This document shows positions 16,165 through 47,311 of a stretch of DNA of 47,311 nt, piece after piece. The DNA comes from Nitrososphaerota archaeon (GTDB lineage: Archaea; Thermoproteota; Bathyarchaeia; Bathyarchaeales; Bathycorpusculaceae). The notes below the pieces were generated by a model that saw only the letters and a list, made by a program, of their open reading frames with translations, did no database searches and was not told the DNA's origin. Within the stretch, counting starts at the first letter, position 1; every line of letters begins with the position of its first letter. The translations under genes and the position numbers were made by a program. Where the stretch lies: positions 1 through 47,311 of the forward strand of contig JAISPR010000127.1 in the NCBI GenBank assembly GCA_031274765.1, in the 5' to 3' direction.

Positions 16165-16365
16165 TCACCATTTCCCAATAACTTTTATTTCATTATCCGT
16201 AATTCCCGGAAAGTTTTTACCACCGCAAACTAACCCTTAGAGCTTAAGCGGAAACTCAAACCAAATGCCCCACAACCGCCCAACCCCGCTTCGAAGCCTC
16301 CCCAACCACAACACACCCATCAAAAACACTACAACGCAAATTAACCAACAAACAAAACACCCCCC

Positions 16366-16470
16366 AGACTGTCCAAAAACTAACAAAACCTCTTGAAAAA
16401 CAAGAAAAGAACCAAATTTCTCCGCCAGTTTACACTAAAAACACGGAAACACCTAGTTTTTAGACAGTCT
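16366..16470. repeat. ~105-bp MITE-like element, copy 1 of 5
   Basis: Ends are inverted repeats: AGACTGTCCAAAAACTA at the left and, on the opposite strand, AGACTGTCTAAAAACTAGG at the right. It is preceded by CCCCC and followed by CCC, as in other copies. The interior has no coding capacity. Confidence 0.85.
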
Positions 16471-16600
16471 CCCACCCTACAACCTAACCCTTAGTCCCAT
16501 ACAATATCCCAAGCCCCAGAATTCATCCCTGGCGCTGGAACAGTGAACTATTTGGATTGGATTGAAAAGCCATAAAAGGCCAAGTCCTAATGACAAACCT

Positions 16601-26106: not shown

Positions 26107-26220
26107 CGGGTTGTTTTGGGGTTCTTGTTTTTTAAATGTTCCTTAGAGGTTTGTGGTTTGCGTTAAAGTTGCAAGTTTGAGATGGTTGTAGATGTTTGAG
26201 TAAGAGTTATTTGTAGGGGG

Positions 26221-26325
26221 AGACTGTCTAAAAACTAGAATTTTTTGTGTTTTTGGTGTGAACGGGCGGAGAAAAGTAGTTCTTTTTTTGTTTTTCTGGG
26301 ATTTGTGTTAGTTTTCGGACAGTCT
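26221..26325. repeat. ~105-bp MITE-like element, copy 2 of 5 (inverted)
   Basis: Runs from AGACTGTCTAAAAACTAG to CGGACAGTCT in the opposite orientation to copy 1, with GGGG before and GGGGGG after. The interior is nearly identical to copy 5 (45309-45413) after reversal. Confidence 0.85.
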
Positions 26326-26440
26326 GGGGGGTTTGATTTTTTGTCGTGTTTGCGATGTTGGTTTTTTCTTTTTGAGCTTGAGGATTGGTGGTTGTGGGTG
26401 ATGGTTCACATATATATTGTCTATATATATTATTAAGGTC

Positions 26441-27344: not shown

Positions 27345-27447
27345 AGACTGCCCATAAACTATATTTTTGTGTTTTTGGCGGAAACGGACAGAGAAAATCA
27401 GTTCTTTTCTTGTTTTTCAAGAAATTTTGCTAGTTTTTGGACAGTCT
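27345..27447. repeat. ~105-bp MITE-like element, copy 4 of 5 (inverted)
   Basis: Begins AGACTGCCCATAAACTA and ends TTTTTGGACAGTCT, inverted relative to copy 3, which lies 228 bases away. The two could form a large palindrome. The ISAzo13-type transposase remnant runs directly into its G-rich right flank. Confidence 0.85.
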
Positions 27448-27927
27448 GGGGGGTTCTGTTGGGGTTATTTTTTGGTTTTGTTGTAATCTGTAGTTCATGT
27501 CGTTTAGTATGTTGCCGATGGTGTCGTGGCTTAGGTTTATGTTTTTTTCGTGGAGGATTTGTTGTATTTTTCTTAGGCTTTTGTTGGTCCACCAGACGGT
27601 TTTTGGGGGGTTTTCTGTGGTGTGGTGGTCTAGGATTTTTTGGATTTGGGTTTGTATGTCGGGGTATTTGTGTGTGGTTGATTTGCGTCCGGCGCCTTTT
27701 TTTCGGATGCGTTTGTCTTTGGGGTTTGGGTTTGTTTTTAGTTCTTTTTGGCCTTTAATGATGGTGGTTTTGGAGACGCCGGTTAGTTCGTGGATTGTTT
27801 TTAGTCCTCCGTGTCCGAGGCTGTTGGCTTCTTTGGCTAGGTAGAGTCTTTTTTGTTTTTCGTTTAGGTGTGGGAGTATGGTTTGTATTCTTTGTTTTGT
27901 TTGTGTGGTTTGTTTTGTGTTGTCCAT
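27430..27927 (-). pseudogene. ISAzo13-type transposase, N-terminal part only
   Basis: The first ~145 codons match the family opening: EKQKRLYLAKEANSLGHGGL, TGVSKTTIIKGQKEL, KKGAGRKST and WTNKSLRKIQQILHE. It then reaches MNYRLQQNQK, where normal proteins continue for another 200-250 residues with the catalytic domain. Here the frame runs into the copy-4 repeat and stops within it. Codons on its own strand are extremely A/C-rich. The piece is a non-functional remnant. Confidence 0.75.
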
Positions 27928-29094: not shown

Positions 29095-29102
29095 CTATAT
29101 AG

Positions 29103-29150
29103 TCTATAAATTTTATGGCGGTTTACTATATAATAGCACCTGTATAAATA
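29103..29150. promoter_or_regulatory. shared promoter region between regulator and pstS
   Basis: For pstS, TACTATATAATAG (29124-29136) is a TATA-like box ~35-45 bases before ATG 29170. A second one, TGTATAAATA, lies at 29141-29150. For the regulator, TTTATAGAC on the minus strand lies about 15 bases before its ATG. The word CATCTATATAG at 29092 recurs at 30272 before pstC and may be an operator, though overlap with TATA sequence makes this weak. Confidence 0.4.
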
Positions 29151-29169
29151 AAAAACTAGATGAAAATCT

Positions 29170-30258
29170 ATGAAAACTACACACATACTAGCAATTGCAC
29201 TTATCGCAATAATAGGGACAGTAGTCACATACGCTTGTCTATCCACAGCTCCAAACACCATATCAATCAACGCTTTCGGCGCAACCTTCCCCCAACCTTT
29301 CCTAACCGCCACAATTATAGAATACTCCACAATAAAACCCAACATACAAATTAACTATCAAGGAGGCGGCAGCGGCAGAGGCGTTAGTGGCTTAACAAAC
29401 AAAGTCATTGACTTTGCATGCTCAGACGCACCCCTAACAAAGACACAAAGAGCCGCTGCCCCCGACGTACTTCACATCCCAGAAACCATCGGAGCAATCA
29501 CCATAGCCTACAACATTCCAGGCATCGATTCAGGCCTAAAACTCACAGGCCCGGTAATAGCTGACATCTTTTTTGGAACAATAAAAACATGGAATGATCC
29601 AGCCATAGTAGCACTTAACCCAGACTTGACACTACCAGCCCGTGATATAGTCGTTATCACCAGATCAGACGGCTCAGGAACTACCAATTGGTTCACAAAA
29701 TACCTCTCCCTGGTCAGCAACAACTGGAAGACACACATCGGAGCAAACACCACAGTTGAGTGGAAAGTTGGAATAAGTCAAAGCGGCAACTCAGCTGTAG
29801 CATCTACTATCACCACAACAGACTATGCAATTGGATACATCGAATTATCATATGCACTAGAGAACAAGGTTCCAGTTGTAGCAATCAAAAACCCTGCAGG
29901 CAACTTTATTAGCCCAACCCTTGAGTCCACAACTGCTGCGGCTCAATCCCTGCCGTCTCCGCTTCCTTTAGGAAGTGATAGCTGGGAAGACATAGCTATA
30001 CTCAACACTAATGGCGATCAAGCATACCCCATTGTTACCCCAACCTATATGCTTGTCTACAAAGATCTCAGCGTAATTCCCGGAATGACCATGGAAAAAG
30101 CAACCGCGATTGTTCAATATATCTGGTATGTTGTACATGATGGACAACAATTAGCATCTGCCCGACAATATGCAGCCCTGCCATCGAATTTGGTAGAAAT
30201 CAACGAAAGAACGCTTAGCACCATAACCTTTAACGGTGAAGCTGTACCGACGCATTAA
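29170..30258 (+). CDS. pstS: phosphate-binding protein of the Pst transporter
   Basis: 362 residues, exported. An N-terminal membrane anchor/signal (ILAIALIAIIGTVVTYACL) with a Cys that could be a lipobox-type site is followed by a mature domain. The phosphate-binding landmarks are present: NAFGATFPQPF, YQGGGSGRGVSGL, FACSDAPL, RSDGSGTTNWFTKYL and AIGYIELSYAL. It captures orthophosphate outside the cell and hands it to PstC/PstA. It starts the pstSCAB-phoU cluster. Confidence 0.96.
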   Translation: MKTTHILAIALIAIIGTVVTYACLSTAPNTISINAFGATFPQPFLTATIIEYSTIKPNIQINYQGGGSGRGVSGLTNKVIDFACSDAPLTKTQRAAAPDVLHIPETIGAITIAYNIPGIDSGLKLTGPVIADIFFGTIKTWNDPAIVALNPDLTLPARDIVVITRSDGSGTTNWFTKYLSLVSNNWKTHIGANTTVEWKVGISQSGNSAVASTITTTDYAIGYIELSYALENKVPVVAIKNPAGNFISPTLESTTAAAQSLPSPLPLGSDSWEDIAILNTNGDQAYPIVTPTYMLVYKDLSVIPGMTMEKATAIVQYIWYVVHDGQQLASARQYAALPSNLVEINERTLSTITFNGEAVPTH

Positions 30259-30274
30259 TCGTTTGTGAACGCAT

Positions 30275-30290
30275 CTATATAGATATATAC
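30275..30290 (+). promoter_or_regulatory. internal promoter before pstC
   Basis: CTATATAGATATATAC lies 17 bases after the pstS stop. It predicts transcription from about 30310, so pstCAB-phoU can be expressed separately from pstS. Confidence 0.45.
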
Positions 30291-30333
30291 AAAACCTTTT
30301 TTTTCTTTGTACCTCTACATCAAACAGATTCGC

Positions 30334-31266
30334 ATGACTAAGCTAACCGGCGATAATATCTTCAAATGCATAGTTGCAGTAATCGCCGCATTTGCCGCAA
30401 TTATATTAATAGTCAATGCTTATGTTCTTATTACGGGCTCAGTAAGAGTTTTTTCTGTATCGGGCTTTGGATTTATTTCTGGAAGAAGCTGGAATCCAGG
30501 CGCATCAACATTTGGTGTCCTACCCGCTATTCTTGGAACCCTCATAACCTCAGGGATTGCTCTACTAGTAGGTGTACCTCTGAGTTTGGGCATCGCCATA
30601 TTTATCGTTGAGATGGCTCCAAGAGCAGTACGGGTACCCTTTTCTTACCTTATTGAAATGTTAGCAGCGGTTCCCAGCGTAATCTATGGACTTTGGGGCA
30701 TGTTTGTGCTGCGTTTCTGGGTTCTAGACTATATCGAAACACCGCTAAACACCTATCTGGGCTGGTTTCCCCTATTTAGCGGAACCCCCACAGGCTATGG
30801 CTTTCTCACGGCGGGTCTCATTTTAGCCATCATGATTATTCCAACCATAGCATCAGTCTCAAGAGAAGTTATCAGCGCAGTTCCAAACTCCATTAAAGAA
30901 GCCGCCTATGGCATTGGAGCTACAAAGGGGGAAGTTATTCATCACTGGGTTCTTAGCTATGGTCGCTCAGGCATATTTGGCGCCATAATTTTAGGGCTAG
31001 GTAGAGCGATAGGCGAAACTATGGCAGTCACGATGGTTATAGGTAACGCGGCTGGAGCCAAAGGTATGCCGGTCTCGCTTTTTCAGCCGGGTCAAACTTT
31101 GCCTTCACTTATTGCAGGAGGTTTTTTTGATTCGCAAACACCCCTACAGAGTTCTGCCTACATAGGTGCAGGATTGGTTTTGCTTGTAATCAGTTTACTC
31201 ATAAACATAGCAGCACATGTTATGGTGACACGTGTTCTAAAAGTTAAAGGAGGCGCCATTGAGTGA
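30334..31266 (+). CDS. pstC: phosphate ABC transporter permease PstC
   Basis: 310 residues from ATG 30334; the upstream TTG at 30307 would lie before the predicted transcription start. Six membrane helices are typical of the family. The EAA-type cytosolic loop (SVSREVISAVPNSIKEAAYG ... IGATKGEVIHHWVL) contacts the ATPase. FLEMLAAVPS-like sequence (YLIEMLAAVPSVIYGLWGMF) is the canonical PstC block. It forms the channel with PstA. The stop overlaps the pstA start. Confidence 0.96.
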   Translation: MTKLTGDNIFKCIVAVIAAFAAIILIVNAYVLITGSVRVFSVSGFGFISGRSWNPGASTFGVLPAILGTLITSGIALLVGVPLSLGIAIFIVEMAPRAVRVPFSYLIEMLAAVPSVIYGLWGMFVLRFWVLDYIETPLNTYLGWFPLFSGTPTGYGFLTAGLILAIMIIPTIASVSREVISAVPNSIKEAAYGIGATKGEVIHHWVLSYGRSGIFGAIILGLGRAIGETMAVTMVIGNAAGAKGMPVSLFQPGQTLPSLIAGGFFDSQTPLQSSAYIGAGLVLLVISLLINIAAHVMVTRVLKVKGGAIE

Positions 31267-32132
31267 TGCGCACCAATATATTTAAAAAGTTGGACCTCCA
31301 CAGCTACAAACTACGCAAATTTAAAAATAAAATTTTCTATATCCTTTGCCTAAGCTGTATTATAGTAGCCATTGTTCCTCTGCTTAGCATCCTCTTTGAA
31401 GTCATATTACGGGGGGCCCCAGCGATAAATCTGCAATTTTTAACTGGAAACGGGTTACATGGAGGTATTGGACCAGCTATACAGGGAACAGTAATTCTAA
31501 TAGGTTTAACCGGCGCCATTGGCATTCCAATTGGCATATTAACCGGCGTGTACCTCTCTGAATATGGAACCAACAAGTATGCAACTTGGATTCGCTCCAT
31601 AAATGACATATTAACAGGGTTTCCCTCCATAATTGTAGGAATCACCGCATACAGTTTAATCGTTATAGGCTTGATAGGACGCTTTTCTCCAATGGCAGGA
31701 GCAGCAGCACTCTCATTTATGCTGATTCCCATCGTGGCAAGAACAACCGAGGAGTCCCTCAAACTTGTTCCAAACAGTGCCCGTGAAGCAGCCATGGCAT
31801 TGGGTATACACCGATGGCGAACAATCATCAGCATCATTTTACCCTCAGCAAAAGGCGGCTTAATCACAGGCACACTCCTTGCGGTAGCACGTATAGCAGG
31901 AGAAACCGCACCCATCCTGCTCACAATTATGGGAAGCAACTTTTTCTTCCAGGGATTTAGCGCACCAATGGATGCACTACCTTTGCGCATATACTTAAAT
32001 TCACAACTCCACACCCAAATAGCACAAACGCAAGCCTGGGGCGCAGCATTAGTGTTAATTTTAATAGTTTTAACCCTTAACATAGGCGTCAGATTAGCAA
32101 GCAACAATAGATACCGCAAAATTACAAGGTGA
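31266..32132 (+). CDS. pstA: phosphate ABC transporter permease PstA
   Basis: 288 residues; ATG 31266 overlaps the pstC stop (TGATG), and GTG 31263 is also possible. Six helices are visible. [34 protein letters not shown] and the EAA-type loop [20 protein letters not shown] with LGIHRWRTI are diagnostic. Partner of PstC in the phosphate channel. The stop overlaps the pstB start. Confidence 0.96.
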
Positions 32133-32899
32133 ACAGAATGGATAATATAAAAATGCAAAGTGTAGATTTGAACGCTTGGTTTGGCACCAAACAAGCATTA
32201 AGAGACATAAATCTCTCAATAAAAACAAACGCAGTCACCGCCATTATTGGACCTTCGGGATGCGGAAAATCCACATTTATCCGCACACTTAACAGAATGC
32301 ATGAATTAGCACCCACCGCCAAAATGACAGGACAAATACTGCTGGATAATCAAAACATCTATAACCCCACTGTGGATCCAGTAATGATCCGCCGCCGAGT
32401 TGGCATGGTTTTCCAAAAACCCAACCCCTTCCCCACCATGTCGATTTATGATAACGTAGCAGCAGGTTTGAAATTAACCGGGGCCCACAAAGACAAAAAC
32501 CTCGACGACGTGGTTAAACACAGTCTACAACAAGCAACACTTTGGGATGAAGTAAAAGACGACCTAAAAAAACCCGGCACAAGCATCTCGGGCGGGCAAC
32601 AACAAAGACTATGTATTGCCCGAGCTATTGCTCTACAACCCGAAGTCATTTTGATGGATGAACCCACCTCAGCACTAGACCCTATTGCATCAGCTAAAAT
32701 CGAGCGCCTTATTGTGGAGTTAAAGAAAAACTATACCGTAGCCATCGTCACCCACAACATGCAACAAGCATCCCGGGTCTCTGACTACACTGCATTTATG
32801 TATCTGGGCAGTCTGATTGAATTTGGAGCGACCAAAGACATCTTTGAGTCACCCAAAAACCAACTAACAGAGAAATATCTAACAGGAGAATTCGGATAG
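32129..32899 (+). CDS. pstB: phosphate ABC transporter ATPase PstB
   Basis: 256 residues from GTG 32129, which overlaps the pstA stop; ATG 32138 is possible. Walker [10 protein letters not shown] (41-49), the PstB-specific [20 protein letters not shown], the signature ISGGQQQR, Walker [14 protein letters not shown] and the switch His ([10 protein letters not shown]) are all intact. It drives phosphate import through PstCA. Confidence 0.97.
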
Positions 32900-32907
32900 G
32901 GAAAACT

Positions 32908-33552
32908 ATGAATAGAATAATCGATCATGGACTAGAAGAGCAAACCGTACTGTTAACCCGAATGGGTGAATTAACCTATGAAGCACTATCATTAGCTATA
33001 CGAGGTTACCTCGAAGGCCGAAACGTACAAACACAAGTAAAAGAGATGTCAGAGGTACTTGTTGCGATGGCAGGAAAAGTTGAAGACAAAACATTTGAGT
33101 TAATAGCCCGCTTCCAACCCGTTGCCTCAGACCTACGCACCATCAAATCCTATATGAAAATCGGCAATGGCTTTGCACGCTATGGTCGATACGCACTAGA
33201 CATATCGGTCATAAACGAACAGCTATGCAATGCAAGCCCGTGTGACACTTGGGCACAAGACTATCTAGCCGAGATGGGTGATAGAGTGCTCTTTATGGTC
33301 AAAACCAGCATCGCCGCACTGCGTAAACACGATGTAGGGCTTGCCAAAACTATTGTACCCATAGAACGAGAAGTCGACAAAATGTATCTTGACTTCCTTG
33401 ATAAACTGCTTAACCAAAAACAAACCAGCAACAAATATGTCATCTCAAACATATTAGCTACCCGATACTTTGAACGTATAGCTGACCACGCAGTCTATAT
33501 TTGTGAGGCTATAGTCTATATCGTAACTGGTGAAAACATCAGTTTAGACTAA
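32908..33552 (+). CDS. phoU: PhoU, phosphate uptake regulator
   Basis: 214 residues of helical PhoU repeats. The metal-cluster type acidic/Arg positions are visible in the first unit (VEDKTFELIARFQPVASDLR) and the second (LATRYFERIADHAVYICEAI). PhoU restrains Pst uptake when phosphate is ample. It is the last gene of the operon and starts nine bases after pstB. Its 3' end overlaps the convergent histidine kinase by nine bases. Unlike the 366-residue protein at 27994 it has no DNA-binding domain. Confidence 0.93.
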   Translation: MNRIIDHGLEEQTVLLTRMGELTYEALSLAIRGYLEGRNVQTQVKEMSEVLVAMAGKVEDKTFELIARFQPVASDLRTIKSYMKIGNGFARYGRYALDISVINEQLCNASPCDTWAQDYLAEMGDRVLFMVKTSIAALRKHDVGLAKTIVPIEREVDKMYLDFLDKLLNQKQTSNKYVISNILATRYFERIADHAVYICEAIVYIVTGENISLD

Positions 33553-35112
33553 ATTGTTTGGCCGCGTAGGGATCTCAACAATAAAAGTTGTCCCCTTATC
33601 GACCTGAGTTTCAAAACTAATGTTACCACCCAAAGCTTCAGTTAGTTTCTTTACTACAGCCAAACCAAAGCCTTGACCTTTTGATTTTGTGGTAAACAGC
33701 GGTTTAAAGATTTTATCTTGCACTTCTGCTGGGATACCTGTTCCTGTATCAGAGATGGTGACTATAACAAATTTACCGCGCAAAGAAGTATGCACCACTA
33801 ATTCGCCGCCTTTGGCTTCCATAGCTTGTATACCATTACGGATAAGATTGCCAAGTATACGTTTGATAAATAGGTGATCGGTTTTTAGCATTGGAAAGGG
33901 TTTAACCGACGAGTAATGGATATGGACATTTTTGGGCACCTCAAGAGTTAAACTGACCGCTCGGATGGTTTCTTCAAGACTGGTATCCGCTATACAAGGA
34001 GTTAGTGGTTTAGCAAAGTCTTGGAGGTCAGCAACAATTTTGTTGATATAGAGGGTCTGCTCCTCCACAGCATTGATACATTCCATAAGACGTTTTTTGA
34101 CAGATAAATCAGGCAAATCGGTTAGTTCATCTTTTGCTAAAAATAATTCACCAATGATACTTTGCAGGGGATTGCGAATATCGTGACCAATCATGCCAGC
34201 GGTTTCCCCAATTGCAGCTAGACGTTCGGCATTGTTTAGTTTTTCGGTGTGTATTCTAACTAGTTCTTCTAGGCGTTTAGTGTACTCGCCCATGGAAATT
34301 TGTGTTTTTTTACGTTCGGTTATGTCTTTGGCTAATACAGATATACCATTGCCGGTTGGATACACCTCTATTTCAAAGAAGGTACTGACGCTTGCTTTGG
34401 GTAATTTGCTGCTAAACGTTCGGGGGTTTTTTGTTCGCATCACATCGCGATAAATGTTTACGAATCTGCGTGAGATGCGGTTTTTTCCAAAAACATTAAA
34501 GAAATGTTTGCCCAATACGTCAGCGCATTTAATACCGGTGAATTTTTCGGTTGCCTTGTTCCAGTAGTTAAATTTTAGGTATGAATCTAGTGCGAAGAAG
34601 GGGTCAGCTATGCTGTTGGCGAGTTTTTTGTATTGTTTCTCGCTTACTCTTAGGGCTTGTTCGGTTTTTCTGCGGGCGGTGATGTCTTTGGTTATCATTG
34701 CTAGGTAGCCTTTTTCGGGGCAGTAGACGTTTAATGAAAACCATCGGTCCAGTGGTTTGCAGTAGCCCTCAAGGGTGAGGCTTTTTCCTTTACCGGTCTG
34801 TGCTAGTTTGCCGCAGAGTTTTATCCATTCTGTGCAGGTGTCTTTGAACCAGGGATATATCTCAGAAGCTCTCTTGCCAATTGCGGGTTCATCGCCTAAT
34901 TTGGTTAGGCGTTGGTAGGGTTTGTTTACATCGCAAAAGACATAATCTATTGCTTCTCCGGATTTGTCAAAGATCATTTTGAAGTAGGCAAAGCCGTCAT
35001 TCATTTGTGTGAATAGATCTTGGTAGATGATTTGACTGCGGGGTATGGGCTGTTCATCGGTGGTTTCGAGGTTGTTTTGTTTTTTTTGGGTGAGTAATGT
35101 TGTTTCTGCCAT
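33544..35112 (-). CDS. PAS-PAS sensor histidine kinase, cytosolic
   Basis: 522 residues without membrane helices. PAS domain 1 is about 35-150 and PAS domain 2 about 160-270. The dimerisation/phospho-acceptor box GMIGHDIRNPLQSI carries His310, followed by an N-box (LGNLIRNGIQAMEAKGG) and G-boxes DTGTGIP (455-461) and GQGFGLAVVKKL. No response regulator lies nearby. Position beside phoU suggests, but does not prove, a link to phosphate or energy sensing. The gene end overlaps the end of phoU by nine bases, so strong convergent transcription could interfere. Confidence 0.93.
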   Translation of the reverse strand: MAETTLLTQKKQNNLETTDEQPIPRSQIIYQDLFTQMNDGFAYFKMIFDKSGEAIDYVFCDVNKPYQRLTKLGDEPAIGKRASEIYPWFKDTCTEWIKLCGKLAQTGKGKSLTLEGYCKPLDRWFSLNVYCPEKGYLAMITKDITARRKTEQALRVSEKQYKKLANSIADPFFALDSYLKFNYWNKATEKFTGIKCADVLGKHFFNVFGKNRISRRFVNIYRDVMRTKNPRTFSSKLPKASVSTFFEIEVYPTGNGISVLAKDITERKKTQISMGEYTKRLEELVRIHTEKLNNAERLAAIGETAGMIGHDIRNPLQSIIGELFLAKDELTDLPDLSVKKRLMECINAVEEQTLYINKIVADLQDFAKPLTPCIADTSLEETIRAVSLTLEVPKNVHIHYSSVKPFPMLKTDHLFIKRILGNLIRNGIQAMEAKGGELVVHTSLRGKFVIVTISDTGTGIPAEVQDKIFKPLFTTKSKGQGFGLAVVKKLTEALGGNISFETQVDKGTTFIVEIPTRPNNLV

Positions 35113-35913
35113 GGATGTTTCTCTTCGTTCAACTTTACGGGTGATAAGTACAGTAACGTAACCCGTTTGCTGTTCTCTTAATTAATGTTTATGACGGCTT
35201 GGTGTTTTTTAGCTTTTCGATAGTATAAGTAGCTACATTAAATTTTACAAAGTGCAATAATGTCTATTATGACATACAGTAAAAGTTTCCAAAAGCCACA
35301 ACCCACAAACAAAAGCCACCCATGAAAAACTCAGATAATCAAACAGTTCCACGAACATGTTGAATGCTAAACAGCAAAATCTCATCATTTTCAAGTAGAC
35401 GATAATTTCTTATCGCACTTAGTATTTGATATCGATTTTGAACAATATCAATTAAATCTAATGTCACAAACGTTAATAGATGCATATCATTAAAATAAAG
35501 AGCAACAACAAGAGCTCAACATCAACTCGATTAGTTATCTTTGCCACAATTATCCCCGCACAAATAACATCATCAACACGCCGTGCAATCGGTTGATTGA
35601 TTTGTTGCATCCCTGCTACACGCCATTTGTGTTACAGCCGCTTTATCTCTCAGATATGTCACACATTTCCCCGCGGTTGATCGCTTATTTCTTCGAGCAT
35701 TGCCCAAAAATGCCTGAGATCATTAGAGTTCAGTGATTCAGAATAAAATCACTCAAGAGTTTACCCTCTTGCAAAATGTCTAAGAAACACGACATAGAAC
35801 AAACGACGTTTGTGAAATCAACTTTCTATTTCCACCTTACTCCCCCACCAGTATATTGATGAACACCTCCTTATTGAAAAAAGATACACAAACAACATAC
35901 CAGCGCCCAATGG
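35113..35913. other. 800-base intergenic region, no gene seen
   Basis: AT-rich and free of credible frames. A minus-strand stretch around 35580-35720 reads protein-like for short runs (LRHFWAMLEEISDQPRGNV) but with stops, so it may be a long-dead gene. No RNA or repeat shared with other places was recognised. Confidence 0.35.
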
Positions 35914-36012
35914 ACAAGCAAATTAAAAAGGGCATTATCCCGATTATATAAATTCGTTAACCACAAACAAATTAAAAAGGGCATTATCCCGATTATATAA
36001 ATTCGTTAACCA
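35914..36012. repeat. 49-bp tandem direct repeat (two units)
   Basis: Two nearly identical head-to-tail units, each running ATTAAAAAGGGCATTATCCC then GATTATATAAATTCGTTAAC. A third, slightly diverged copy lies alone at 45460-45501. Each unit contains TTATATAA, which is a strong archaeal TATA box. The tandem could therefore be a duplicated promoter or part of a mobile-element end. Confidence 0.85.
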
Positions 36013-36545
36013 AAATAAACGACAAAAAAACAACCAACCCCAATCCTATGACGCATCATAGACAAAGAAAACCACATATACAAAAACCAAAAACAAGACA
36101 CCACCCAAAAATTGAGATAGATTTTTGGTCCGGTGCATACCTGCCTTTGCCCCTCCCAAGGGGGCTTGAGGCTTACTTTCAACAGTTTTGCTTTGTCCTC
36201 ATGTTTGCTAACGTTGCGGTTTTGTCAAACGTTTAGGGCTACTTAACACTTTTCTGCCAGGATAGTTTGCGTGTTGGCGTTTTGCTTATCGGTTAAGCAG
36301 TTTGCTTCTTTGGTTATTTTTGGAGGCAGGCCTGTTCTGCGTCTTATTGATCCCTATCTGTGCGCACTGGTTGGTAGTTTTATTTGACAACAGCGTGATG
36401 ATGGACAGGGCTTTGTTTTCTAGTGCATTTTACATAATGTTTATGCAATTTGGATCAATACAAAATAGTTTTGCCCCAAAGCCCGCTAACTTTTAACCAC
36501 AGCTGTTATTAGGAACTGTTGTTTACCTTCAAGGGAGGCAGTTTT
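36013..36545. other. intergenic region before PPK2, no gene seen
   Basis: Includes a short open frame without motif after the tandem repeat (36048-36236). The region from 36240 to 36480 is T/G-rich. The end (36532-36545) carries the PPK2 ribosome site. No known structure was recognised. Confidence 0.35.
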
Positions 36546-37436
36546 GTGTCTGTTAATGCGCGAGATTTTAGAGTGTGTTCTGATAAGGGTATATGTCTTA
36601 AAAATTATGAATCAAACTGGTTACCAAAATGGATAGACCAAGAAAATCACAGGGGTCTAAAGCAACAAGCCTTGGTGGTTCTTGAGGAAAATCGGCAAAA
36701 ACTCATACATGAACAAGAACTGCTCTGGGCAAGTGATAGTTATGCTATGTTGATTATACTGCAGGGTATGGATGCGGCAGGTAAAGACAGTACTATTCGT
36801 CATGTTATGTCAGGAGTTAATCCGCAGGGATGTCGAGTTACTAGTTTTAAAACGCCCTCTGCAGAGGAGCTTAAGCATGATTTTTTGTGGCGTCACATAA
36901 AAATGCTTCCTGAACGGGGTAGTATTGGTATTTTTAATCGTTCCTATTATGAGGATGTGTTAATTGTTAAGGTCCGTTCGGATGTTTTTGCTAAACAAAA
37001 GTTGCCGCCAATAGAGAATAAGGAGCGGTTTTGGGAGCACCGCTATGAGGATATAAATTCTTTTGAGCGTCATCTCACTCGATGTGGAACTTTGGTTCTC
37101 AAATTTTATCTCCATATCTCAAAGAAGGAACAAAAAAAACGTCTGCTCAAACGGCTTGAAAATCCAGCTAAAGCTTGGAAGTTTTCGCTAACCGATATTG
37201 AGGAACGCACCAAATGGTCAGAGTATGAAAAGGCCTACGAGGAGATGTTAAACAAAACCAGTACAAAATGGGCACCGTGGTATGTTGTGCCAGCAGATAG
37301 GAAATGGGTTGCGCACGCTTTGGTTTCAGAGGTTATCACTACAGAAATTAAAAAACTTAACTTGGAATATCCAGCGTTAAGTGAAACCAAAAAAAGAGAG
37401 TTAGCAGCAGCCAAAGCAGAACTAGAAAAAGAATAA
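36546..37436 (+). CDS. ppk2: polyphosphate kinase 2 family protein
   Basis: 296 residues from GTG 36546, set by GGAGG seven bases upstream. Walker A GMDAAGKDS is at 74-82, the Walker B-like block GIFNRSYYEDVL at 128-139, and the lid KKRLLKRLENPAKAWKFSL around 198-214. PPK2 uses polyphosphate to phosphorylate nucleotides (NDP to NTP, or NMP to NDP by class). The single domain rules out the two-domain class II. Convergent with ppx, whose stop is directly adjacent. It provides the polyphosphate-spending arm of this island. Confidence 0.94.
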   Translation: MSVNARDFRVCSDKGICLKNYESNWLPKWIDQENHRGLKQQALVVLEENRQKLIHEQELLWASDSYAMLIILQGMDAAGKDSTIRHVMSGVNPQGCRVTSFKTPSAEELKHDFLWRHIKMLPERGSIGIFNRSYYEDVLIVKVRSDVFAKQKLPPIENKERFWEHRYEDINSFERHLTRCGTLVLKFYLHISKKEQKKRLLKRLENPAKAWKFSLTDIEERTKWSEYEKAYEEMLNKTSTKWAPWYVVPADRKWVAHALVSEVITTEIKKLNLEYPALSETKKRELAAAKAELEKE

Positions 37437-39011
37437 CTATGCGTTGGGTGTTACAATACATTGTGTGCTTAGATGTTTCTCAAACGCGCAGTAAAATGCT
37501 ATCTGATTCTGCGACACACTCCATTCCTCTAAACTGCAATCGCTATCTGAGTAGAACCGCAAAACAACATGGTCTTTACTTTCCTTAACAAACTCGGCCT
37601 TCTTAACTAGTCCACGATGGCTTCGGTCAAGTTTCTCTGCAAACCTCAAAAATGTCGAGAGCACCATAATGGCTTCTTTGCTTTTTTCATCCAACCCGGA
37701 GATGGTTTTTAGAATTTTTTTCGTGGGATACTTTTTCCGATGAAAACGGGCAATATTTGCCATCAGCTGAATTTCTGTTTTATCAAACCCTGGAAGCCCT
37801 GCATTGCTGATGATATAGTGAGAATGCAGATGGTGGTCATTAAAAGAAAGAAAGTCACCAACATCATGAAGAGCCGAAGCATGTCTTAGCAGATCCCGTG
37901 CGTTCATACCCAGATTGTGAAGTTCTATTTTTTTAGCACTATCAAAAAGCTCTAGAGCCAAACCCGCAACGGTTTCAGCATGTTTTTCATCAAAATTACA
38001 AGATCTGCCCAAATAGAGGACACTTTGGTTTCTCACCGGTTCTTTTTGGAGTGCCCGAAAACCAGCAAAAGTAGACAAGTATTCCACCAAAAGACCATCA
38101 CGGAGTTCTCTGGGACTTATATTGATCTCTTCTAACCCAAATTTTTCCATAATACCCTCTACAATTGCAGCACCCGCAATAATAATGTCTGCACGTTCAG
38201 GGTTTATAGCAGGTAATCGTTTGCGTTCCTTGAGAGGTAACCAACATAGGACCATTGCAAGTTTTTTGAGGTTTTTTCTAGTCAAAACCAAAATGCCATC
38301 ATTGTTATCAGCTTTTTTAAACAGTTTATTTGCAATTTCAGCCAAATTAATTATAGTGCCCGAAGAACCCCAGGCTATACGAACGCCATATTCTAAAACC
38401 TGAGGTGTTATCAAATTAATTTTATTGCAAGCATCGTGCCGTATCTGCTTGTAGAGCGCACTATCTATAGAACCTTCCCAGCCTTCCCCAATAAACTGAG
38501 CGGTTAAGCGAATTGCACCTAAACGAAGACTACTAATATAGAAGCATTCATGCTGGTTGCCAATGGCAATCTCGGTACTGCCACCACCTAAATCAATAAA
38601 GAGCGATTTCTTAACACCCATATCTATACCACTAGAGACCCCCAACCAAATAAGACGTGCCTCCTCCTCTCCGGAGATAACCCTGACACTTAAACCGGTT
38701 TTTGATTTGAGGTTTTTTAGAAACTCAGCTTGATTAGTAGCCTCACGAAGCGCTGAAGTTCCCACAGATATTATCTCTACAGCGCCATATGTTCGAGCTA
38801 AATCGGCAAATTTTTCGCAAACAAATATAGCACGCTCCATCGCTTCAGGTTTTAGGGTTTGATCCCTAAATTCGCCCTCGCCTAGTCGGACAACTTCTTT
38901 TTCTCGACTAAGGGTAGTGTAGGAAAAATTGGGATTAATTCTTGCCACTAAGAGACGGATGGCGTTTGTGCCAATATCAATAAATCCTACGACGTTTTCA
39001 GCGTTTTTCAC
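37437..39011 (-). CDS. ppx: exopolyphosphatase / Ppx-GppA phosphatase with C-terminal HD domain
   Basis: 524 residues. The ASKHA-fold N-terminus has FIDIGTNAIRLLV (phosphate-binding loop 1), SVGTSALREATN, SGEEEARLIWLGVSSG and the second loop FIDLGGGSTEIAIG. The C-terminal third has an HD-type helical domain (ASALHDVGDFLSF, then HHLHSHYIISNAGLPG). This layout and length match long-form PPX/GppA proteins, which release phosphate from polyphosphate ends or hydrolyse pppGpp. Last gene of the ppk1 operon, eight bases after the CHAD fusion gene. Confidence 0.95.
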   Translation of the reverse strand: MKNAENVVGFIDIGTNAIRLLVARINPNFSYTTLSREKEVVRLGEGEFRDQTLKPEAMERAIFVCEKFADLARTYGAVEIISVGTSALREATNQAEFLKNLKSKTGLSVRVISGEEEARLIWLGVSSGIDMGVKKSLFIDLGGGSTEIAIGNQHECFYISSLRLGAIRLTAQFIGEGWEGSIDSALYKQIRHDACNKINLITPQVLEYGVRIAWGSSGTIINLAEIANKLFKKADNNDGILVLTRKNLKKLAMVLCWLPLKERKRLPAINPERADIIIAGAAIVEGIMEKFGLEEINISPRELRDGLLVEYLSTFAGFRALQKEPVRNQSVLYLGRSCNFDEKHAETVAGLALELFDSAKKIELHNLGMNARDLLRHASALHDVGDFLSFNDHHLHSHYIISNAGLPGFDKTEIQLMANIARFHRKKYPTKKILKTISGLDEKSKEAIMVLSTFLRFAEKLDRSHRGLVKKAEFVKESKDHVVLRFYSDSDCSLEEWSVSQNQIAFYCAFEKHLSTQCIVTPNA

Positions 39012-39019
39012 TGTGGGGT

Positions 39020-41329
39020 CTATAGCAATATCACTTTCCTCTTAAAAATTTTTTCAAACAGAGCTTTCTTTTTATTAAATACGGATAGCTCCATCAGTAG
39101 ATTCATTTCAGTTAAGCAACTCACCACGACCTTTTTTGCGCTAACTTTGACACTTAGTGCTTTAACACAGTTTTTATGACGGCAGTCAAGACTGTCAGCT
39201 AAACGTAAAAGTGCAGCCAGCACGTAAATAGAATGTATTGATTTGGAATCAAGAGAATTAAGGTTGTAGTGTTTGGGTTTTGGTAATCCTCCACGGTGAT
39301 ATCTTGCAATACTAGCAATGATTCTTCGCTCCTTGGAGGAAAAAGGCAGCTGTGAGTCGTTTAGGATAAGGGTCATTGATTTTTTATGATGTGCCCCGCC
39401 GGGTTTTGATAATCCCACATCATGAAGCATTGCAGCACATTTAAGCCAGCATCGTTCCTGGTGACCTAACTTATGAAGCTCAGCTAACTCATCAAATAAA
39501 GTTAAAGCAAGACAAGTGACGTGCCGATGGTGTTTAGTATCTATTGAGAGGCGCTCAGAAAATTGCTCGCATGCCGCCACAGCAACATTGCAATCAGATA
39601 TCAGCAAGGCGCGTTTCGCTTTATCTTCTTTGGCAACAGTATTTATTGATACACCGCGCAGAAGCATCTGGGCAAAACTCTCAGGCAGGCCGTATTTGCG
39701 CATATTATGGGCGGCGGTTTCCACATCGTAGGGTAATCTAATTAGTTCAACATTTAGAGGGTTGAAACTCAAAAGAGCATAAGCAGTTTGGGGGTTTCCA
39801 TCGAGGGGGCATCCAACACTGCCTGGATTCACAAAAACAGTTCCGTTCACCTCACGTTGAAACGGCATGTGTGAATGACCAATCACTACAATATCAGGGG
39901 TTATCTGGGTTAATTTTTGCATTTGTTTGGGGGGCATATCAGCATAGAGGGGCTTAGTTATTGTCTGAGGACTGTCATGCATTACAAAAAGCTGTTTATC
40001 ACCTGCTTTTAAGCAAAGTTTTTGGGGCAACAAAGAGAGATATTTTTCAGATGACCCGGAGAGGGGGGATTTGGCAGGTTTAGATAGTTTTTTTTTCACA
40101 TCATCTTGGTTTTCTAGCATTTCTATGTCATAGTTGCCAGCGATGTTTAGCACATTTTTCTCACAGAGTAACGCGATGACTTTGTTTGGGCAAACGCCAA
40201 AGCCCACAGAATCTCCTGCATTAATATAAACTTCTGCTCCACGCATTTTAGCATCTTGAAAAACCTGTTGTAGTGCCGCTAAATTAGCGTGGATATTTGC
40301 CATCACTGCGATTTTACCAGAGTTAGATAATAGAATGGGATGGACTTTTTCTGTCAATGATGCAAGGGTTTGGCGGCTGAATTTATTGATCAGTTGTTCA
40401 AATGTATGTGTGGTTAGGGATTGATTCCAGAGGTCTACAAGCTGGCTATAGCATTTTTTTCTTTTGTCCAAGAGATAGGCTTCAAAGCTCTGCAGGGAAG
40501 GGTCTATAATTGGCCGGGATTGGTTTTTTGTAATGTTTCGAGGGGTTTTCTGTAGTTTTGTGCTAAACTTGGGAAGGTAGTCAAGCCAGACGTCGCAGTC
40601 ATGTAGTTCACCTAATATATCTTGAAAATCTTTAACCAGTTGGATTTCAGAGCAAAGTTTGTTCTCGTAGAGCAAAGCAAAACATTCCAGAGTGTAGCGA
40701 AGTTTTTTGGCGTAGATGCGCATCTGATGATGATGGTGTGATTCATTTTCGAGGTAAATATATTGTTTTAAGGAGAAAAAATCGTTTAGTCTAAGGTTTA
40801 TGTACCAACATGCGTTTTGGAACACTTGGGCAGGATCAGGGGGATTTTGGTGGGTTATTAAATTCTCGCAGTGACTTTGGAGGTTAGTTAGGGTTTGGGT
40901 TATTTTGAGTTTTTCTAAACTCTGGCTAATTGTGATTTGGATGTTTTTTCGACGGTTTTTATGATCTTCTAAGAGGGCATTTAGGCCTGTTTTGTCGGCA
41001 GCGAGTTCAGGTTTGGTTAGATAGTTTTCTACAAAGCGGATGTGTACATCTATGTCTCTTGCTTTGGAGAGTAGTTGGGTAACTTTTTTGATATCTCTGC
41101 GCCAAAGAGTGGATTTTTTTTTGGAAAAACAGTTCTCAAAGAGCAGTAAGCCGACCCTTAGCCGACGGGAACCTACCCGCGCTTTATGCACATATGCTAT
41201 GTCAGGGTTTGCTATGACACCTTTGATTAAGTCATCATAGCCCTCCAATAGTTTTAGCAGGGTTTGAGCTCCAAAGGTGCAGTAATCAGAGTTAACTGTA
41301 CACGGTTGAAATATAGGCTGCGTATTCAT
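39020..41329 (-). CDS. CHAD - metallophosphoesterase - HD three-domain fusion
   Basis: 769 residues. Residues ~15-310 are a CHAD domain, which binds polyphosphate: two basic helical halves with HKARVGSRRLRVGL (48-61) and HHHHQMRIYAKKLRYTLE (198-215). Residues ~338-535 are a YfcE-type metallophosphoesterase with AGDSVGFG, GNYD, HDSP, GHSHMPF and NPGSVG; the first metal Asp (usually DIHGN) is Asn345 (ANIHAN), so activity is uncertain. Residues ~590-769 are an HD domain (MLHDVGLSKPGG, ARYHRGG) resembling the PPX C-terminus. The start overlaps ppk1 by 38 bases and ppx follows after eight, so it is translationally tied to polyphosphate enzymes. Confidence 0.9.
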   Translation of the reverse strand: MNTQPIFQPCTVNSDYCTFGAQTLLKLLEGYDDLIKGVIANPDIAYVHKARVGSRRLRVGLLLFENCFSKKKSTLWRRDIKKVTQLLSKARDIDVHIRFVENYLTKPELAADKTGLNALLEDHKNRRKNIQITISQSLEKLKITQTLTNLQSHCENLITHQNPPDPAQVFQNACWYINLRLNDFFSLKQYIYLENESHHHHQMRIYAKKLRYTLECFALLYENKLCSEIQLVKDFQDILGELHDCDVWLDYLPKFSTKLQKTPRNITKNQSRPIIDPSLQSFEAYLLDKRKKCYSQLVDLWNQSLTTHTFEQLINKFSRQTLASLTEKVHPILLSNSGKIAVMANIHANLAALQQVFQDAKMRGAEVYINAGDSVGFGVCPNKVIALLCEKNVLNIAGNYDIEMLENQDDVKKKLSKPAKSPLSGSSEKYLSLLPQKLCLKAGDKQLFVMHDSPQTITKPLYADMPPKQMQKLTQITPDIVVIGHSHMPFQREVNGTVFVNPGSVGCPLDGNPQTAYALLSFNPLNVELIRLPYDVETAAHNMRKYGLPESFAQMLLRGVSINTVAKEDKAKRALLISDCNVAVAACEQFSERLSIDTKHHRHVTCLALTLFDELAELHKLGHQERCWLKCAAMLHDVGLSKPGGAHHKKSMTLILNDSQLPFSSKERRIIASIARYHRGGLPKPKHYNLNSLDSKSIHSIYVLAALLRLADSLDCRHKNCVKALSVKVSAKKVVVSCLTEMNLLMELSVFNKKKALFEKIFKRKVILL

Positions 41330-43421
41330 GCCATATACCTCGGTTTTGAATTAACCAAAACTGTGAATTAATGCTTGTCTCACCAGGTTTAGGGGTGATT
41401 CTTTGGTAAGTGCCATCGGAGAGGAGTTTTCGGGCTTTAACATTGTCTTTGAGGTGAATTTTGAGCATGTATTCAAAGATTCCGTGACGTATTTGGGGGT
41501 CAGGAACACTAAAGAGAACCTCTACCCGGTCTTTGAGGTTGCGAATCATCATATCAGAACTGCCAATTAAGAGCTCAGTTGCACCGCCATTTTCAAAGTA
41601 ATAGATACGTGCATGTTCTAAAAATCGTCCAACAATAGAGGTTACAGATATGTTTTCGCTTACCTGGGCTATACCAGGACATAGAACACACAGAGCCCGG
41701 ATATTGAGCTCCACTTTAACCCCTGCTATAGATGCACGGTAGAGAGCTTTTATTATGTCTTTGTCTTCTAAATTGTTGAGTTTAAATGCTAAATAGCCTT
41801 TTCCGGTTTGCTTGTGTGCATTGATTTCACGTTCAATTCTGGACAAAAGTTCATTTTTAAGTTTTTTGGGTGCCACCAGTAGATGTTTAAAGTCTCTTTC
41901 AGGCACACCATTAATTAGACTGTTAAATAACGCTTCAAGTTCTAGACCAACTTCGGGATTAGCGGTCAAGTAACCTATATCACCATATATTTTAGCAGTC
42001 ACAGCATTATAGTTACCTGAACCCACATGCGAATACCGTACTAAGCCTTCTTTTTCCCGCCGGACTATGAGACAGAGTTTAGCATGAACTTTAAAGTTGG
42101 GGAAATTATAAACAGTAGTGACACCTGCTTGTCGGAGTTTTGAAACTAACAAGATATTATTTTCTTCGTCGAATTTGGCTTTTAACTCGACGATAGCAGT
42201 TACTTTTTTACCGCTTTGTGCAGCCAGCATTAGGGCATTTACGATGGATGAATTTACATCCATACGATACAGTGTGATGCAAATGGTTTCGACCCAGGGG
42301 TCTTGTGAGGCTTCTTTTAGTAAATCTATGATTATTTCAAATCCGTCATAGGGGTGGTAGAGTACTATATCGCGTTTAGCAATTGTGGTAAACATGTTTT
42401 TCTCAGGGGTTAGCAAAGGTAAAATGGAGGGGAGAAATACGCGGTCTTTTAATCCGGGGTGAGGAATTTTGTATAGATGCCAAAGATCTACTAGACCAAG
42501 TGGGCCGTCAAAGGTATATGTTAGGGTGGAAGATAGATTAAAGTAATTTCGCAGGGTTTTTTTTAGGGCTTCAGGGGTCTGTTTATCGAATTCAAGTCGG
42601 CTTGGGAAACCGGTTTTTCTTTTGGTGAGACCTTTTTTTACTGACCCCAAAAAATCAGAGGTATTGGTTATGATTTCTATTTCACTGTTGCGGGTTAGTC
42701 TAAAGGGATAGGCAGTTAAGCCGTGGGTGTTTGGAAAAATTAGATCTAAACAGTTCAGAACAAGGTCTTCTATGAAGATGAAATTGTGTTCGATGAGTTC
42801 ACGGTAGGGGTTTTGGGGGACAGTTAGGAGGCGTCCGATTTTTTCTGTGGGAAACCCTACAATTGAGTGGAAGGTTTTGGTTGCTGATTCTACACATAGG
42901 TGAATATGTAGATTTTCGATTAGGGGTGCTTCAGAGGGTTCTTTAAATATTTTTATTTGGGATAAAAGGGTGGTTTTGAAGTAGTTGCGCAAGATGTCTT
43001 TGGATTTGTCTGTTAGGTCTAGGTATTTTTGGATGGTTATGTTTTCTTTGGCCAATGCAGGTAAGAGTTCGTTTTTCCAGCAGTTCGCATGTTTCTCAAG
43101 TAAGGGAGGCATCTTTTTGCTAACAGCCAAAACCTGCTCTAGAGAAGTTAGTCCATCTGCTGAACGTTCTTGGGATTCTTTGGTTATTTTTTTAATGAGG
43201 CGCGCAACGCGGGTCATAAAAAATTCATCAAGGTTGCTGCCACAGATTGCTAAAAATTTGACACGTTCAAGTAAGGGATGCCATTCGTCTTGGGCTTCTT
43301 CTAAAATACGTGCATTGAAGCTTAACCATCCGAGTTCTCTGTTGAGGTAGTAATTTTTGTTATCTAGATTTTTTTCTTTAATTTGGTTAGATTTCACGGT
43401 GTAATTTGTGAGGGTTGACAC
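41292..43421 (-). CDS. ppk1: polyphosphate kinase 1
   Basis: 709 residues from GTG. It makes long-chain polyphosphate from ATP, reversibly. NREL-type N-domain (YLNRELGWLSFNARILEEA) and a head domain precede two phospholipase-D-like catalytic domains. His446 (KVHAKL) matches the phospho-histidine of the E. coli enzyme (His435), His465 (YSHVGSGNYN) matches the neighbouring His, and His603 (LEHARIYYF) matches His592. All motifs are intact and the length is normal. First gene of the ppk1 - CHAD fusion - ppx operon. Confidence 0.96.
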   Translation of the reverse strand: MSTLTNYTVKSNQIKEKNLDNKNYYLNRELGWLSFNARILEEAQDEWHPLLERVKFLAICGSNLDEFFMTRVARLIKKITKESQERSADGLTSLEQVLAVSKKMPPLLEKHANCWKNELLPALAKENITIQKYLDLTDKSKDILRNYFKTTLLSQIKIFKEPSEAPLIENLHIHLCVESATKTFHSIVGFPTEKIGRLLTVPQNPYRELIEHNFIFIEDLVLNCLDLIFPNTHGLTAYPFRLTRNSEIEIITNTSDFLGSVKKGLTKRKTGFPSRLEFDKQTPEALKKTLRNYFNLSSTLTYTFDGPLGLVDLWHLYKIPHPGLKDRVFLPSILPLLTPEKNMFTTIAKRDIVLYHPYDGFEIIIDLLKEASQDPWVETICITLYRMDVNSSIVNALMLAAQSGKKVTAIVELKAKFDEENNILLVSKLRQAGVTTVYNFPNFKVHAKLCLIVRREKEGLVRYSHVGSGNYNAVTAKIYGDIGYLTANPEVGLELEALFNSLINGVPERDFKHLLVAPKKLKNELLSRIEREINAHKQTGKGYLAFKLNNLEDKDIIKALYRASIAGVKVELNIRALCVLCPGIAQVSENISVTSIVGRFLEHARIYYFENGGATELLIGSSDMMIRNLKDRVEVLFSVPDPQIRHGIFEYMLKIHLKDNVKARKLLSDGTYQRITPKPGETSINSQFWLIQNRGIWHEYAAYISTVYS

Positions 43422-44588: not shown

Positions 44589-45308
44589 AATCAATCAACA
44601 CCACCCTTTTTTAAATAATACCCAAAACACACACCTAACCAAGATTACATATCAACCAAAATAAAACAACCAACACCTGCAGCATAGAATAGCCACATAT
44701 ATTCCAAGATTGAGCACCAGAATTTTGACCTTTCACCATTTTAAACAGACGCATACACGCTTCTCCAAACCCTTCATGCCATCACCGACTTTGGAACAAA
44801 ACTATTTTGGGTTAACACGAATAGCATAAATATTATATAAAAACACAACAGAAAACAAAACAACCGCCCACCATCACCCCGCCACTGCCAAATAAAACCC
44901 CAAACCCCGCTTATCAAACAAAAACCCACCCTCGAGAGGCTACGATAAAAATATTGCGACAAAAAAACAACTACCAAAACCACCACCCGAGCAAGAATAC
45001 TAGCCCAAACACCAAACTTACAACCGTAACTATGCCTTTTTGCCCCTATATCAGCATTTAACACTCAATTCCAACCCCATTTAAACAAACAACCACAACC
45101 CTCAAATAAAATTGCCCCCATATTACCCCTATACAAAACACACCACAACCCACACAAACAACATTCAAAAAACTAAAACAACAACACCAAACCCCCCTCC
45201 AACTCCAACACACAAAAGAACACACCACGTAAACAAAAACCACACCAAATAGAACAAACAAAAAAACAACCCCAAAAACAACCCAAATCCCAGACAAAAT
45301 AACCCCCC
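44589..45308. other. A/C-rich strand-asymmetric segment, no convincing gene
   Basis: The + strand is very A/C-rich from about 44820 to 45308 and leads straight into the CCCCCC flank of a ~105-bp repeat, as at 16255-16365. Open frames on the opposite strand are skew artefacts. It looks like decayed transposase DNA similar in composition to the ISAzo13- and IS630-type remnants. Confidence 0.4.
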
Positions 45309-45413
45309 AGACTGTCCGAAAACTAACACAAATCCCAGAAAAACAAAAAAAGAACTACTTTTCTCCGCCCGTTCACACCAAAAACACAAAAAATTCTAGT
45401 GTTCAGACAGTCT
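45309..45413. repeat. ~105-bp MITE-like element, copy 5 of 5
   Basis: From AGACTGTCCGAAAACTAA to TTCAGACAGTCT, preceded by CCCCCC and followed by CCCC. It is close to an exact reverse complement of copy 2. Confidence 0.87.
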
Positions 45414-45417
45414 CCCC

Positions 45418-45450
45418 TGTAATTATGCAGAGAGTCTGTCCGTCACCTAA
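45418..45450. repeat. 33-bp direct repeat, left copy flanking the dinD region
   Basis: TGTAATTATGCAGAGAGTCT followed by GTCCGTCACCTAA; recurs at 47219-47251 in the same orientation with five mismatches. The pair bounds about 1.8 kb containing a MITE and the broken dinD. Confidence 0.6.
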
Positions 45451-45459
45451 GCATACATG

Positions 45460-45501
45460 ATTAAAAAGGACATTGCCCCGATTATATAAATTCGTTAATC
45501 A
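45460..45501. repeat. dispersed third copy of the 49-bp repeat
   Basis: ATTAAAAAGGACATTGCCCC then GATTATATAAATTCGTTAAT, matching the two tandem units at 35914-36012 with a few substitutions. It again carries the TTATATAA box. Confidence 0.8.
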
Positions 45502-45615
45502 TGAAAAACTCAAGTAAACTAGAGGTCTATAATTAATTCTCATCTATTGGCGTTTCTCTTTTTACATTTCTTTTTGAACACAACTTACCCAAGTTGACAG
45601 ATGCACATTCGAATG

Positions 45616-45806
45616 ATATAGTCGAATAGCTTAATTTTTAACCCTATGTTTTAGTGTTTATGTTGTGTAGATGTGATTTCTGAAAAGAGTGTTGAAAATT
45701 GATGGTAAATGGTTACCTAACCTGATTTGACCCCCAAACAGGAACTTTCGTAAAAAAAGCGGCGCCACCTATCTAAGAGCATAATTATTAAACTATTCAG
45801 CTATAT
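45616..45806. repeat. 191-bp MITE with TA target site, copy 2 of 2 (inverted)
   Basis: Near-identical reverse complement of 18594-18784, of exactly the same length. Ends TATAGTCGAATAGCTTAAT and, inverted at the right, TATAGCTGAATAGTTTAAT, flanked by TA on each side. Lies upstream of dinD. Confidence 0.88.
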
Positions 45807-45941
45807 TAACAAATTGTTACGTTCAAGACCTGCTACCCAGACAGCAAACCAAAAATAATCAGGATTGCAAAAGAGAAACTTTTCACTTGTCTAATTTTCT
45901 CAAAATTTACAGCATATGGTTAAATGTGTTGATGCAAAAAA

Positions 45942-47218: not shown

Positions 47219-47251
47219 CTGTAATTATACAGGGAGTTTGTCTGGCACCTA
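47219..47251. repeat. 33-bp direct repeat, right copy flanking the dinD region
   Basis: TGTAATTATACAGGGAGTTT followed by GTCTGGCACCTAA, matching 45418-45450. The remaining 60 bases of the window show no further feature. Confidence 0.6.
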
Positions 47252-47311
47252 ACGTATATGCAAGAAATATTTGCCCAATTCATCAACCACATACTATACT
47301 ACTTACGGCAT

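Follow-up and report, generated by a model that had tools for sequence, protein, structure and literature searches.

What are the two adjacent 49-bp repeats that sit between a histidine kinase gene and a PPK2 gene on this Nitrososphaerota contig? An earlier note on this DNA had read them, together with a lone relative farther along, as a duplicated promoter that might belong to a mobile or regulatory cassette. We examined the repeat in the window (the whole stretch of 47,311 nucleotides that was analysed), in the rest of the home genome and in 60 related genomes.

Repeat units in the window and in the home genome

The tandem repeat is real. Its two units (35914-36011) are 98% identical, and Tandem Repeats Finder reports a period of 49 with 2.2 copies over 35914-36019; the diverged third copy has 78% identity to the first 49-bp unit. 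The sequence GATTATATAAATTCGTTAA is found exactly at 35942-35960, 35991-36009 and 45480-45498, and a search of the window with up to three mismatches returns three matches, against a mean of 0.01 in 100 shuffles. The window period of 49 bp is made up of a 41-bp unit, TTAAAAAGGGCATTATCCCGATTATATAAATTCGTTAACCA, here called the tip unit after the reading given below, and 8 bp (CAAGCAAA or CAAACAAA). At gathering thresholds, Rfam has one match in the window and none at the tip repeat; a DUF3800-X RNA (RF02984, 45.2 bits) lies at 549-620 on the minus strand, near the contig start.

Table 1. Positions in the window of the tip units, their flanks, the dinD-region motif and the copies of a second repeat family, MITE-B
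Feature	Position	Strand	Remark
Tip unit 1 (41 bp)	35923..35963	+	transposase sense on minus strand: TGGTTAACGAATTTATATAATCGGGATAATGCCCTTTTTAA
Tip unit 2 (41 bp)	35972..36012	+	
8-bp left flank CAAGCAAA	35915..35922	+	recurs as CAAACAAA at 35964-35971
TATA-like TTTATATAA of tip	35944..35952	-	identical in unit 2 and the 45.5 kb copy
Target AAATAAA adjoining unit 2	36013..36019	+	fits NAANAAA
Lone diverged tip unit	45461..45501	+	
Flank of lone tip unit, TGAAAAA	45502-45508		no exact fit to NAANAAA
MITE-B, no tip inside	16360..16473	+	target GAAAAA^CAAGAAAAG intact
MITE-B, no tip inside	26217..26333	-	
MITE-B (partial), no tip inside	27364..27455	-	target intact
MITE-B, no tip inside	45303..45417	+	paralogous empty site
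dinD-region motif GGTTAACGAAT	46685-46695		

Within the home genome, 59 matches with up to three mismatches are found, 27 of them exact, versus one for a reversed-pattern control. Two of the 59 (L045 and L049) were left out of the counts because both are within predicted genes and have no CCA flank. There are at least 57 tip units at 47 loci, namely 38 single units and nine arrays of two or three; a sequence-only model, R1, gives 63 matches at E<=0.1. The commonest unit is 41 bp long and reads TTAAAAAGGGCATTGTCCCGATTATATAAATTCGTTAACCA, followed by an A-rich flank, while some copies retain the right part only. Clusters lie between predicted genes except for two of 49, which were judged to be chance matches since the flanking consensus is missing; one more overlaps a gene end by a few bases. 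The window copies are ordinary members of the family. At L050 (G000:C5), a variant of the tip repeats in tandem with a period of 88 bp, and the repeated stretch takes in another potential hairpin (GGGTCTTTTAAAAGTCC); it may represent a second subfamily.

The parent element and its transposase

The 49-bp repeat very probably represents one end, the tip that abuts the target, of an IS91-family insertion sequence (HUH/Y2, rolling-circle; 1.2 kb) found in Bathycorpusculum, a genus placed within Bathyarchaeia in the available text of PMC10684969. Many tip matches in relatives lie near contig ends and run left into a subterminal hairpin and an opposite-strand coding region, with the tip 76-82 bp before the transposase match. 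In the home genome, contig C127 has a tip at 17192-17240 and a transposase match from 17302, and an open transposase frame of 283 aa adjoins this tip; further transposase fragments are present on C91, C102 and C169, and a weak one on C167. Aligned copies have about 1.2 kb in common with sharp ends. Both ends are present in five copies, with which the tip side of two home-genome contigs could also be aligned, and eight complete elements of 1195-1211 bp are available from five genomes. In transposase sense, the order is [about TTTNTTN]|TTGTTAACG..TTTATATAA-hairpin-tnp-GCGCC.GAA.GGCGC-TTTGTTC|. Hairpins at the full ends have folding z values of -2.6 and -2.2, which support them; the 41-bp unit has no significant hairpin (z +0.8 and +0.9), and a de novo terminator hairpin in it was rejected on these values.

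The protein assigns the element to its family. Transposase pieces at L124 match Zn_Tnp_IS91 (7.6e-26) and Y2_Tnp (9.9e-20), and L140 scores 254.8 bits against the NCBIfam IS91 equivalog, whose cut-off is 125. PHVH is present in frames of L169, L115 and L124, and Y.GRY in L173, L176, L115, L106, L124 and L146; the HUH motif and the two tyrosines four residues apart are therefore found across the set of elements, not within one intact copy. Indeed, none of the eight complete elements has an intact single-frame transposase, which counts against our main reading. The longest frame (382 aa, L168/L140) has PPVH in place of PHVH and lacks Y.GRY, and the other elements are broken. Assembly errors in these metagenome-assembled genomes may contribute to the broken transposases.

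Model R1 matches 13 of 61 genomes (the home genome and 60 relatives), all in the window's genus, although the scan above 40 genomes used stricter filters under which weak matches can be lost. A transposase match at E<=1e-10 is found in nine of the 32 genus genomes, all nine tip-positive, and in none of the 19 tip-negative ones; four tip-positive genomes (G008, G010, G021, G028) also have no match at 1e-10, which counts against a link between tip and transposase. A protein-pattern scan of named genomes gave 17 loci, titled Candidatus Bathycorpusculum or Nitrososphaerota archaeon; among them L168 is the same element as L140 of G001, a genome from the genus of the window, and the window is therefore placed in Bathycorpusculum.

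The majority of home-genome copies are short and retain the tip, and these would be truncations of the element. The mobile half of the earlier proposal is borne out: each unit is an end of an IS91-family element, and the copies behave like inserted DNA. The note had also held that copies confined to decayed IS elements and giving no transcripts would speak against its reading; truncated or decayed IS ends are indeed what the copies are, but many of them are solitary and intergenic.

The promoter half finds no support, as the TATA-like sequence is part of the element's tip. The distance from the tip to the first base of TTTATATAA is 11 bp in five complete elements, which leaves 65-71 bp to the beginning of the transposase match, and the TATA-like box faces inwards; judged from its position, it may be the transposase's own promoter in the parent element. 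Since it faces into the element, it points left in the window, away from the PPK2 gene (36519-37436), whose predicted start is about 500 bp to the right of the tandem tip. It is very unlikely that the repeat is a dispersed promoter or regulatory cassette, kept and duplicated for driving neighbouring genes. TTTATATAA is conserved, the copies lie between predicted genes, and the hairpin is retained beside the unit at no fewer than 8 of 47 loci (by eye, among 12 pattern matches); however, conservation tracks the transposon tip and not gene context, the neighbouring genes are in all orientations at distances of -7 to 1368 nt, and the copies are insertions, several of them within another mobile repeat. 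No consistent arrangement was seen among the neighbours at 49 clusters. By a hand recount without a control, 27 of the 42 clusters with a right-hand gene have it on the opposite strand; seven of the 49 clusters have none, and both L023 clusters share one gene. A binding site common to the tip and a MITE in the dinD region, which had also been suggested, is equally unsupported: TTCGTTAACC has seven matches with up to one mismatch, three of them tip units, versus a shuffle mean of 3.4, with 4 of 100 shuffles reaching seven, and the TATATAA part is missing in the dinD region. As for the wider neighbourhood, phosphate and polyphosphate genes occupy 27994-43421 (PhoU, a phosphate-binding-type protein, an ABC ATPase, the histidine kinase, PPK2, Ppx/GppA and PPK1).

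Target sites and the orientation of the element ends

Tips lie immediately 5' of NAANAAA at 31 of 47 loci, compared with 243 of 30,954 intergenic window positions, and the third base after the outer unit is A at all 47; nevertheless, the 16 targets outside NAANAAA count against our main reading. TAAA is found at 17 loci, CAAG at seven and GAAC at six, and the last two are among the targets listed for IS801 in the available text of PMC3189936. No duplicated target was seen at the tip junctions, including those in MITE-B. As expected of IS91, no target duplication is seen and GAAC/CAAG-type sites are used (13 of 47), with other A-rich sites elsewhere.

MITE-B is a second, MITE-like family of about 115-120 bp with similar ends (AGACTGTC/GACAGTCT) and four copies in the window. 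Eight tip loci are flanked by it (L009, L024, L025, L036, L046, L051, L052 and L053), mostly by one half only, and the flanks break at one internal CAAG site, GAAAAA^CAAGAAAAG: five left flanks end at position 49-52 and four right flanks start at 52-54. L024 has both MITE-B halves by BLAST, with a 41-bp unit and a partial unit of about 24 bp between them; at L053 the left half was found by BLAST and the right half by eye, and the tip at L036 is the longer form with the hairpin. The shared breakpoint thus indicates insertion without target duplication.

Which end is origin-like was judged from the flanks. Available text on IS801 describes fragments that begin with a target-like tetranucleotide and keep the right (3', ori) end (PMC3189936), and oriIS of ISCR1 is likewise described downstream of the gene (PMC13023784). 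From the sequences at hand, the target-abutting, origin-like end of the Bathycorpusculum element seems to be upstream of the transposase, whereas these published IS801 and ISCR layouts have it downstream; the IS91 arrangement with ori downstream and ter upstream of the transposase, as given in the sources available, is not what we find. By these flank and end criteria, the Bathycorpusculum gene is inverted relative to the element ends. We call the element a variant of IS91 because its end layout differs, while its protein keeps it in the family.

It is conceivable, if rather doubtful, that the tip is ter-like instead and that the transposase is oriented as is usual in IS91. Available text on ISCR places the terIS region and the transposase promoter upstream of the gene (PMC13393415), and the tip is upstream here as well. 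Yet it is the tip side that is variable, with six different heptamers before the tip in the eight complete elements, in transposase sense (TTTTTTA three times, TTTTTTG, TTTTTCA, GTCCTTG, TTTATTT and TTTGTCC), whereas the far end after the GC-rich hairpin is nearly constant (TTTGTTC in seven of the eight, TTTCTTG in one). Furthermore, one-ended IS801 fragments begin at the target-like tetranucleotide and retain the ori end, as the accessible part of PMC3189936 has it, and what the short copies retain here is the tip. An IS91 element of Piscirickettsia (n=7) served as a control: CAAG stands at the 5' end in 5/5 copies reaching that end, and TAAA (four) or GAAC (one) follows the 3' end in the five copies, out of seven, that extend to it. 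Because four copies share TAAA, this control is suggestive and not decisive. In Cetobacterium two copies can be compared, and their A/T-rich flanks are identical; the IS91-like genes G109 and G012:C51 are single copies, whose ends are therefore not definable.

Tandem arrays and a possible mechanism

With slightly better than even confidence, we propose that in this Bathycorpusculum IS91 lineage the transposase is inverted relative to ori and ter, so that the element's coding strand is mobilised 5' end first, as in Helitrons, and that a stuttering ori stacks nested partial self-copies and sheds 41-bp minimal elements. With the tip as ori, the HUH transposase would nick the boundary of T-rich target and tip on the transposase-sense strand, which replication would then peel off. 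If this stopped too early, within or close to the T-run of the hairpin, short one-ended products could result, which might insert at T-rich targets. Arrays could arise if the target beside an existing tip were used again, or by abortive extension and re-joining at the tip. Copying of unit 1 in the window may have run on to a CAAG farther upstream, a target-like stopping point, and so have given unit 2 and its 8-bp prefix.

The available text on IS801 reports that one-ended fragments make up 26.3% of insertions; its authors hold that most fragments in sequenced genomes come from rearrangement and not from one-ended transposition (PMC3189936), a view that counts against our main reading of the short copies. 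Also against it, the short units begin with TTAA, TCAA, TTCA, ACAA, CCTT and others, none of them a clean target tetranucleotide.

Most other home-genome arrays have a unit-to-unit step of 41 bp, with 39, 40 and 88 also seen. Among relatives, arrays are present at 14 of 40 loci from four genomes (13 in G002 and one in G031), with tip-to-tip spacings of 15, 18, 19, 24, 31, 40, 41, 42 and 44 bp; nested tip arrays spaced 15-44 bp are unusual. Adjacent home-genome units differ at a mean of 3.8 of 41 positions (10 pairs), versus 9.6 for all pairs, and none of 20,000 random draws of pairs was as low. Neighbouring units resemble each other more than randomly drawn pairs do, which suggests that arrays grow locally, although two of the 10 adjacent pairs, whose first unit retains the right part only, differ at 14 and 16 positions.

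Local growth could also come from replication slippage alone after one insertion, with the transposase uninvolved, which we think unlikely. Array units have private variants in common, A/T-rich ends favour slippage, and tandem units of equal length are explicable by it. Unit lengths nevertheless vary within one array (24, 24, 24, 19 and 31 at L089; 24, 15 and 24 at L090), and the A/T-run is absent from the 24-bp units. The sequence between successive tips is, moreover, a terminal piece of the same end, though counting from tip to tip makes this common end partly definitional. A CRISPR-like or integron-like direct repeat is hardly conceivable, because a transposase is linked to these short, near-identical, tandem units: the parent element bears it, and the home-genome arrays have two or three units and no spacers (8 bp in the window).

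Relation to known systems

Judged by the available text of PMC3189936, IS801 resembles the Bathycorpusculum element in its IS91-family transposase, its GAAC/CAAG-type targets, the target-like tetranucleotide at the far end and the short one-ended derivatives keeping one end. It differs in that its target-abutting end is 3' of the transposase and not 5'; the targets here are also looser and A/T-rich (TAAA at 17/47), the short derivatives are about 41 bp versus 229-679 bp, and tandem tip arrays are formed. ISCR elements, as described in the accessible parts of PMC13023784 and PMC13393415, have an IS91-related transposase, two distinct structured ends and a proposed single-end mobilisation, but their oriIS is downstream of the gene; the NCBIfam ISCR clade Ia model gives 53 bits here, with a cut-off of 925. 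The likeness to Helitrons and Helraiser, as far as PMC4778049 is available, concerns layout only (a 5'-side start, a hairpin near the 3' end and a short 3' tetranucleotide) and truncations with new 3' ends, CTTG being among those of Helraiser; Helitrons target AT and not NAANAAA-type sites, and the protein here is an IS91 transposase. A Helitron was ruled out, as no helicase was seen in the 1195-1211 bp element, only the IS91-type transposase region.

Like prokaryotic MITEs, the tips are tiny, non-autonomous and intergenic, with copies far outnumbering transposase genes; unlike them, they derive from one end. A classical MITE was ruled out, as neither terminal inverted repeats nor target duplication was seen in the 41-bp unit or at its junctions. 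An IS200/IS605 end, considered because of the subterminal hairpin, was rejected since the linked transposase is IS91-type and not a Y1 TnpA.

What looked like a regulatory repeat reads instead as a trace left by rolling-circle transposition, in an archaeal genus that has been little studied. The literature searched, in its accessible text, describes neither this repeat nor an inverted IS91 layout, which is not proof of absence. If the inverted layout is true, transposase gene orientation does not fix the direction of HUH transposition within the IS91 family, which bears on the relation between IS91 and Helitron layouts; the nested-tip arrays may record abortive initiation in sequence.

The window holds other repeats as well. 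A stretch reading TGTAATTAT.CAG.GAGT.TGTC... occurs at 45419-45460, directly left of the lone tip unit, and at 47220-47265, where the tip is missing and ATATG is followed by CAAGAAAT; the second place may be another empty site. By eye, the frames of 117 and 111 aa at 17154-18360, which are short and followed by stops, resemble a decayed insertion sequence. A 205-bp dispersed repeat is present at 18583-18787 and 45613-45817; the two copies are mutually inverted and 95% complementary, and the ends of the first, 18594-18618 and 18760-18784, are partly complementary.
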